A stretch of 64,000 nt of DNA, taken from positions 5,145,501-5,209,500 of the forward strand of contig NZ_CP108109.1 in NCBI RefSeq assembly GCF_036199905.1, read 5' to 3'. Every line of letters starts with the position of its first letter. The stretch's first letter is position 1. A program made the position numbers and the translations under genes. Under the pieces are notes generated by a model, which was not told the origin of the DNA, searched no databases, and was given only the letters and a program-made list of their open reading frames with translations. Source of the stretch: Streptomyces sp. NBC_00223. Its GTDB lineage: Bacteria; Actinomycetota; Actinomycetes; Streptomycetales; Streptomycetaceae. Shown in pieces: positions 52,682-53,285 of the stretch.

Positions 52682-53014
52682 TCAGACCCGGCCGCGGGAC
52701 AGTTCGAGCAGCGTCATGGCCAGCGCGGTGCCCGGCCGGCCGAGCGCGTCGCCGTACGCGCGCAGGATGTCCATCTCGCGGGCCAGATGGACCCGGCGGC
52801 CGCCGGCCCCGATCCTGGCCCGCTGGATCTCGCCGGAGACGGCCATCCGCTCCCGGACCAGGGCGATGATCCGCGTGTCGAGATCGTCGATACGGGCGCG
52901 GTGGTCGGCGATCACGGTCTCGGCTTCCGTCATGGTCCCGCCCGCCGCAGTGGTGTCGGTCACGGTCTGCTCCTCGGTTCGGTGTCCGGTGGTGGTGTCA
53001 CGGACTGGTGTCAC
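52682..53014 (-). CDS. Chorismate mutase (AroQ class)
   Basis: 110 residues or fewer, depending on the start. The core is a helical AroQ domain: ADHRARIDDLDTRIIALVRE, RMAVSGEIQRARIGAGGRRV, REMDILRAYGDALG. It converts chorismate to prephenate for Phe and Tyr. The Arg and Lys/Glu positions of the four-helix active site appear present. The start at 53014 gives a disordered 20-30-residue beginning; a start at the inner MTEAE is possible. An upstream leader peptide with Phe/Tyr codons and a hairpin suggest attenuation control. Confidence 0.9.
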   Translation of the reverse strand: MTPVRDTTTGHRTEEQTVTDTTAAGGTMTEAETVIADHRARIDDLDTRIIALVRERMAVSGEIQRARIGAGGRRVHLAREMDILRAYGDALGRPGTALAMTLLELSRGRV

Positions 53015-53045
53015 GGACCCGGATCCCGGCCTCGGAGGACGCGAA

Positions 53046-53077
53046 AGGCGCCCCGGGCCGAGTGGCCCGGGGCGCCT
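53046..53077 (-). promoter_or_regulatory. Attenuator-like hairpin before chorismate mutase
   Basis: A perfect 14-bp inverted repeat (53046-53059 and 53064-53077, arms AGGCGCCCCGGGCC / GGCCCGGGGCGCCT) with a 4-base loop. On the minus strand it lies after the leader peptide stop and before the chorismate mutase start, and is followed by TTTCGCG. Arrangement fits a terminator used for attenuation. Confidence 0.7.
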
Positions 53078-53098
53078 GGAAAGTCGCTCGTCAGCAGT

Positions 53099-53167
53099 TC
53101 ACACGACGCGACCACGGCAGCCGGACCGGCCGGTGCCATAGGTAAACGCGAAGGTGGACGTCTGCAT
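53099..53167 (-). CDS. Leader peptide with Phe-Ala-Phe-Thr-Tyr run
   Basis: 22 residues: [20 protein letters not shown] then VV. It begins with ATG at 53167, six bases after a -10-like CATACT on the minus strand, so the message may be leaderless. Phe6, Phe8 and Tyr10 are the end products of the pathway served by the chorismate mutase gene downstream. The stop is followed by the 14-bp hairpin 22 bases later. The combination fits a phe/tyr attenuation leader; no such system in Streptomyces is known to me. Confidence 0.6.
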
Positions 53168-53285
53168 GGCGCCAGTATGGACCACCGCCCCCACGGGGGC
53201 GCAAGGCGCTTACCGCGTCACCGGTAGAATCGGGCACAGGGCCGACAGGTCCTGGATCCCCGCACCAACCGCCGGAAGGCCGCCC

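Follow-up and report, generated by a model that had tools for sequence, protein, structure and literature searches.

Is the chorismate mutase (CM) gene of this locus controlled through the translation of a short leader peptide? Chorismate mutase makes the precursor from which both phenylalanine and tyrosine derive. In the window, the stretch of 64,000 nt of Streptomyces DNA that was analysed as a whole, the initial annotation had noticed an open reading frame (ORF) with Phe and Tyr codons and a strong hairpin ahead of this gene, and had read them as a Phe/Tyr-responsive attenuator on a leaderless message. The comparison of related loci supports this reading, since a hairpin whose 5′ base falls on the Tyr codon, as classical attenuation requires, is conserved and shows compensatory changes.

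The CM gene (52682–52963, minus strand, as are all features of the locus given below) has a GTG start and is preceded by GAGGAG (52970–52975), its likely Shine-Dalgarno sequence. Its product matches PF01817 (Pfam), NF005894 (NCBIfam) and TIGR01808, as well as PDB entry 2qbv (E = 1.8e-11); the Pfam and NCBIfam matches bear out the gene assignment that had been made from the letters. Judged by its sequence, the enzyme is of the AroQ-delta type, like Rv0948c of Mycobacterium tuberculosis. It belongs to the Phe/Tyr pathway, the same pathway as the amino acids featured in the leader. The gene guaA (GMP synthase) lies upstream of CM in divergent orientation. A second CM_2 domain exists in the same genome within a 575-codon open frame (L081, G000:C1:1206144-1206380), with a PF01817 score far above that of the window CM.

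Leader ORF, promoter spacing and codon choice

The −10-like hexamer CATACT (53174–53179) is separated by the six bases GGCGCC from a leader ORF of 22 codons plus TGA (53099–53167, start ATG at 53165–53167), and the presumed regulatory codons (53138–53152) are Phe6 (TTC, 53150–53152), Phe8 (TTT, 53144–53146) and Tyr10 (TAT, 53138–53140). Hexamer, spacing, ORF and codons agree exactly with the initial description. By homology we fetched 80 CM loci from records named Streptomyces, Actinacidiphila and relatives, which together with the window gave 81 loci. Such a comparison had been put forward as the way to refute the attenuation idea; the ORF and its Phe/Tyr codons were kept in all 80 fetched loci as well as in the window. 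A short ORF with codons for the end products of the pathway hence precedes CM in 81/81 loci, and in ten further families (see below).

The distance between the start codon and TTT is 24 nt in 75 of the 81 loci. Nearly all of them have a hexamer of the form [TCA]ANNNT with 6 or 7 nt between its end and the start codon, in 71/81 CATACT; no conserved −35 element was seen in the CM leader loci compared. The spacing of the hexamer implies that transcription begins with the A of the ATG that opens the leader; being conserved, it matches what a leaderless start requires and speaks for the leaderless message proposed initially.

The codons TTT, ACC and GGC are invariant (81/81 each), TAT occurs in 80/81 loci, and the earlier Phe codon TTC is kept in 78/81. 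No Trp codon is present between the start and the Tyr codon in any of the 81 loci. In neighbouring ORFs the ratios are 6:1032 for TTT:TTC and 12:758 for TAT:TAC; TTT and TAT together make up about 1% of the Phe/Tyr codons nearby, and TTT less than 1% of the Phe codons. Set against this background, the (nearly) invariant TTT and TAT point to strongly selected rare codons. The pause hairpin described below explains the choice of TAT but not that of TTT. Phe8 is always TTT (81/81; 53144–53146 in the window) although it lies outside that hairpin, and it may be a rare codon retained to promote stalling.

A mechanical scan combined a −10 element, 6–7 nt, ATG or GTG, a frame of 12–40 codons with at least three Phe/Tyr in residues 2–14 and, no more than 60 nt away, a hairpin of 10 bp or longer. 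Within the 64 kb window the CM leader was the only site returned, and in the 80 relatives (421 kb) the scan returned 77 CM leaders and no other site.

Up to the Tyr codon the reading frame is always kept, with most residues in this part varying. Beyond Tyr, the frame or the stop is changed in L002, L003, L005, L006 with its clade, L011, L023, L037 and L046, among others; these frameshifted alleles encode different C-terminal residues with the nucleotide sequence of the hairpins intact. Codons therefore matter upstream and RNA downstream. The peptide C-terminus GPSGCHGRAA is probably conserved as RNA, and selection appears to act only on the aromatic codons and the RNA. One of the loci, L031, comes from a record titled Microtetraspora glauca NRRL B-3735 and is a typical Streptomyces CM locus; the strain is probably misnamed.

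Proposed competing RNA structures

The 208-nt leader folds into a structure whose stability exceeds that of dinucleotide shuffles by 3.5 s.d. Three competing elements can be drawn, a pause hairpin 1:2, an antiterminator 2:3 and a terminator 3:4. The pause hairpin (CUAUGGCACCGG / CCGGCUGCCGUGG, 53112–53141) has a 5′ base that overlaps the Tyr codon and shows cross-family covariation; a covarying hairpin thus overlaps the regulatory codons. The proposed strand 2 of the antiterminator (CGGUCCGGCUGCCGUGG, 53112–53128) would pair with strand 3 (53064–53079), drawn as the terminator's 5′ arm with an additional CC, with p values between 0.03 and 0.3 depending on the locus in Streptomycetaceae. Inside this pairing lies a small hairpin that surrounds the leader's stop codon (53083–53112) and reads GCUUG/CAAGC in most Streptomyces, with 91–94% of cells paired and some double changes.

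The terminator-like hairpin, AGGCGCCCCGGGCC-ACTC-GGCCCGGGGCGCCT (53046–53077), has a perfect 14-bp stem, as initially described, and a 4-nt loop; it begins 21 bases after the leader stop, one base fewer than the 22 first given. In 52 sequences 99.5% of its cells are paired, with double changes at 2 pairs. It is followed in the window by UUCGCG, a weak U-tract, and lies about 70 nt from GAGGAG. Between terminator and CM gene, the 13-mer GTCCGTGACACCA occurs in two tandem copies (52993–53018). A generic promoter and terminator scan of the window gave no match, which is explained by its requirement for sigma-70 hexamers and a U-tract. Good U-tracts are found in other families, e.g. GGGGCTTTTTCG in L133 and GGGGCTTTTTTG in L136.

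Sequences from Streptomycetaceae alone were too conserved for a verdict on covariation, therefore other families were fetched. The cross-family fold test covered at least one representative of each of 12 groups and used mononucleotide shuffles and family medians. Hairpin 1:2 was more stable than the shuffles (combined p about 8e-7), as was the region with the hairpin behind the ORF (combined p 2e-10). The 2:3 pairing gave a combined p of 0.06, a rough value, as the automatic terminator assignment failed for some mycobacterial and f18 loci; the 2:3 values of L143, L185, L186 and probably of some f18 loci carry no weight, nor do those of L143, L146, L152 and L153 in a separate comparison of antiterminator energies with shuffled leaders, where terminators were mis-assigned too. 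In nearly all families the main stem of 1:2 starts no more than a few bases from Tyr, and at fixed offsets from the Tyr codon its pairs change on both sides across families: C-G/G-C at offset 5, A-U/U-A/U-G/C-G/G-U/G-C at offset 6 and C-G/A-U/G-C/G-U at offset 7. By these comparisons, the pause hairpin and the hairpin of the putative terminator are well supported.

For the antiterminator, for which the initial annotation had suggested folding, a pairing does exist and its statistical support is weak. Its energy did not differ significantly from that of shuffled leaders in most families, and no excess of covariation was seen for it within Streptomycetaceae. In L014 the 2:3 pairing reaches −25.9 kcal/mol (p 0.036), and L021 shows a triple covariation in which the leader change GGCCCG to GGTCCG goes together with the terminator change CGGGCC to CGGACC (GGUCCG/CGGACC). 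The antiterminator may be regarded as plausible and weakly supported.

Occurrence beyond the Streptomycetaceae

A covariance model searched against 296 genomes from the class matched all but one of the listed genomes of the own family and gave weaker matches elsewhere. The exception, G285, is the sole sampled family member lacking a model match, and it has no CM match either. In the own genome, the other matches were weak; they scored much lower than the genuine site, and most of them covered only the terminator part of the model.

Leaders with Phe/Tyr codons and a hairpin also precede CM in ten further families (f4, f12, f14, f18, f21, f31, f35, f37, f46 and f48), which extends the initial observation. 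The leaders read VTRSAFFFYGSGRVR in f31, VSDRRSYFYYGTGSPAAVGRA in f37, VTSAATRFFYGYRPPVAVAAV in f35, MSTQRFYGHRIPVPARV in f21, FFYALTGVRSGLGC in f14 (there also YF in L150), RFFYGIRTPAPVIAC in f46, SFFYGHRDPVSVTAG in f48 and MAMVRFYPDRPPVLDAA in f12, while f18 has leaders of the FYGGR and HFYQGPG types. The sequence after Tyr differs among the families; the hairpin persists. Second CM copies in an f1 and an f18 genome (L142, L179) lack leader and hairpin.

In f4 the leader VLxxQRRFFYGYRPAVPVV is found in one genus, which we took to be Mycobacterium because its CM is nearly identical to Rv0948c. The leader pattern occurred in 38 of 60 genomes of this genus and the reversed control gave 0; all but one of the plus-strand matches examined there lie just upstream of CM. 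No leader was present upstream of CM in seven non-Mycobacterium f4 genomes and for two second CM copies. Two of the non-Mycobacterium f4 loci, L145 and L148, have a short ORF upstream of CM (MVCPFVKQ... and MTGALASECT) that is directly preceded by a −10-like hexamer and has no aromatic run; perhaps these are decayed attenuators.

The covariance model further led to leaders in family f17, MQRNFWRFYGYRP...ALR and MRTAWSFWYGDGP...ALR, which have their own terminators and stand ahead of a DAHP synthase (L120–L127, L130–L132, L135–L137 and L139). This enzyme belongs to class I and carries a ferredoxin-like domain (PF18152 and PF00793). The pattern FWRFYGYR was found in 23 of 100 f17 genomes and 16 of 68 genera. 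Leaders with Phe, Trp and Tyr fit the first common step of the pathway, and the CM leaders with Phe and Tyr fit the branch. In the genome of the window, neither the class-II DAHP synthase nor the prephenate dehydratase showed an aromatic leader upstream.

These distributions suggest, with somewhat less than an even chance, an ancient actinomycete aromatic-amino-acid attenuator that combines a lineage-dependent target, branch-matched codons and a conserved rare UUU tuned for stalling. As part of this joint reading, the targets would be CM in most families including Mycobacterium and DAHP synthase in f17 and Corynebacterium, an assignment we hold tentatively and just short of evenly balanced. 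The codons, likewise as part of it, would be Phe/Tyr for CM and Phe/Trp/Tyr for the f17 DAHP synthase, for which the odds are also slightly adverse.

Attenuation model, alternatives and known systems

In all likelihood the element is a ribosome-mediated transcription attenuator that sets CM expression according to the charging of tRNA-Phe and tRNA-Tyr on a leaderless message. ORF, aromatic codons, promoter spacing, hairpin 1:2, the terminator-like hairpin, gene linkage and conservation can be read from the compared sequences; from them we infer where the transcript starts, that it terminates, that strands 2 and 3 pair as an antiterminator, that the ribosome stalls, and the direction of the response. 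Transcription would start at the leader ATG or at most one base away from it, and translation of the message would follow immediately. As long as Phe and Tyr were plentiful, the ribosome would pass FxFTY, reach the stop codon and mask the 3′ portion of strand 2; the 3:4 hairpin could then form and transcription would stop before the CM gene. If Phe or Tyr were short, the ribosome would halt on UUC, UUU or UAU and cover strand 1, strand 2 would pair with the emerging strand 3, no terminator would form and CM would be made. This direction, low Phe/Tyr leading to read-through, follows from the strand geometry and from the trp and phe precedents. The weak points of the attenuation reading are the antiterminator and, in Streptomyces, the weak U-tract. 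A report that changes of candidate codons left the regulation of the Streptomyces coelicolor ilvB leader unaltered, as cited in PMC1262725, also counsels caution.

It is conceivable that the leader ORF senses Phe/Tyr but acts mainly at the level of translation or through Rho, a stalled ribosome exposing or hiding RNA with an effect on the start region of CM or on a Rho site, and with the hairpin as a stability element only. The weak U-tract in the window and in many Streptomyces would suit this, as would the simple scan that found no terminator, the weakly supported antiterminator and the fact that known actinobacterial leaders often have no clear terminators (PMC1262725, PMC8079986). We consider it unlikely, because the strongest hairpin stands just past the leader stop (about 10–29 nt where resolved) and far from the CM Shine-Dalgarno sequence, is near-perfect and kept through compensatory changes, and is accompanied by the U-tracts of L133 and L136 in other families.

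That the peptide itself is the regulator, as a conserved micropeptide with a function of its own or as a nascent-peptide arrest sequence (TFVFTYGTGPSGCHGRAA), might be suspected from the amino acids after Tyr, which are highly conserved in most Streptomyces. Precisely this stretch is altered in the frameshifted alleles, which retain the RNA, and it varies between families in which the hairpin stays; the unusual T-ending third positions after Tyr are explained by pairing. We rejected this very improbable reading on account of the frameshift alleles. An ordinary hairpin next to a chance ORF in the divergent guaA–CM intergenic region would come to mind in GC-rich genomes, which have many hairpins, and short ORFs are common. 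The 77 leaders in place, against no comparable site elsewhere in the 421 kb of the relatives, and the recurrence across the class make such a non-regulatory origin scarcely credible, and it is strongly disfavoured.

The element sits ahead of an enzyme at a key branch point, and does so in mycobacteria too, whose counterpart of this CM is the intracellular enzyme Rv0948c. It might serve as a ready tool to tune aromatic flux in antibiotic producers, and natural variants for testing are on offer in the form of frameshifts, changed stems and different aromatic codons.

No Rfam covariance model, including T-box and enteric leaders, matched the window at the gathering score, and for five loci Rfam gave nothing relevant at E ≤ 0.1. 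A survey of Actinobacteria had not seen conserved RNA structures upstream of phenylalanine/tyrosine operons (PMC1262725), and among the 8 leader peptides of an RNA-seq survey of Streptomyces lividans none was for Phe/Tyr (PMC8079986). Searches of the open literature gave no prior report of a Phe/Tyr attenuator of CM. On these sequence comparisons, it is very probably a new, class-wide case of leader-peptide attenuation in many actinobacterial families including Mycobacterium.

The trpL attenuators of Streptomyces and Corynebacterium share with it a short leader peptide and have, as is proposed for the window element, mutually exclusive complementary triples and a GC-rich terminator, and the trpL leader of S. 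lividans is leaderless (PMC1262725, PMC8079986), but trpL has Trp codons and serves other genes. The Corynebacterium ilvB uORF is similar in being conserved, in carrying codons for its own end products and in having an antiterminator and a terminator, which are putative in the window element (PMC10272879, PMC11109978); it concerns branched-chain amino acids, however, and its motif is restricted to Corynebacterium. In Corynebacterium glutamicum, aroR is a Phe-Tyr-Phe leader of aroF (DAHP synthase) at which Phe limitation is reported to raise read-through (Neshat et al. 2014, cited in PMC11802643; PMC4046766). Both are actinobacterial aromatic leaders ahead of a gene of the aromatic pathway, but aroR precedes the first pathway step and the window element precedes CM. 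No aroR-like leader was present at the CM locus of L157, an f4 member with a small genome (2.3 Mb). The f17 element would share with aroR-aroF the position upstream of DAHP synthase, making aroR its published parallel. Finally, the pheL-pheA attenuator of Escherichia coli and relatives, which responds to tRNA charging (reviewed in PMC11802643), likewise has a Phe-containing leader peptide before a CM gene, and it has competing hairpins such as are proposed here. In contrast to pheL-pheA, the element described here would be leaderless and is unrelated in sequence, combines Phe and Tyr in a short core, and precedes a stand-alone CM of the AroQ-delta type instead of a CM-prephenate dehydratase fusion.
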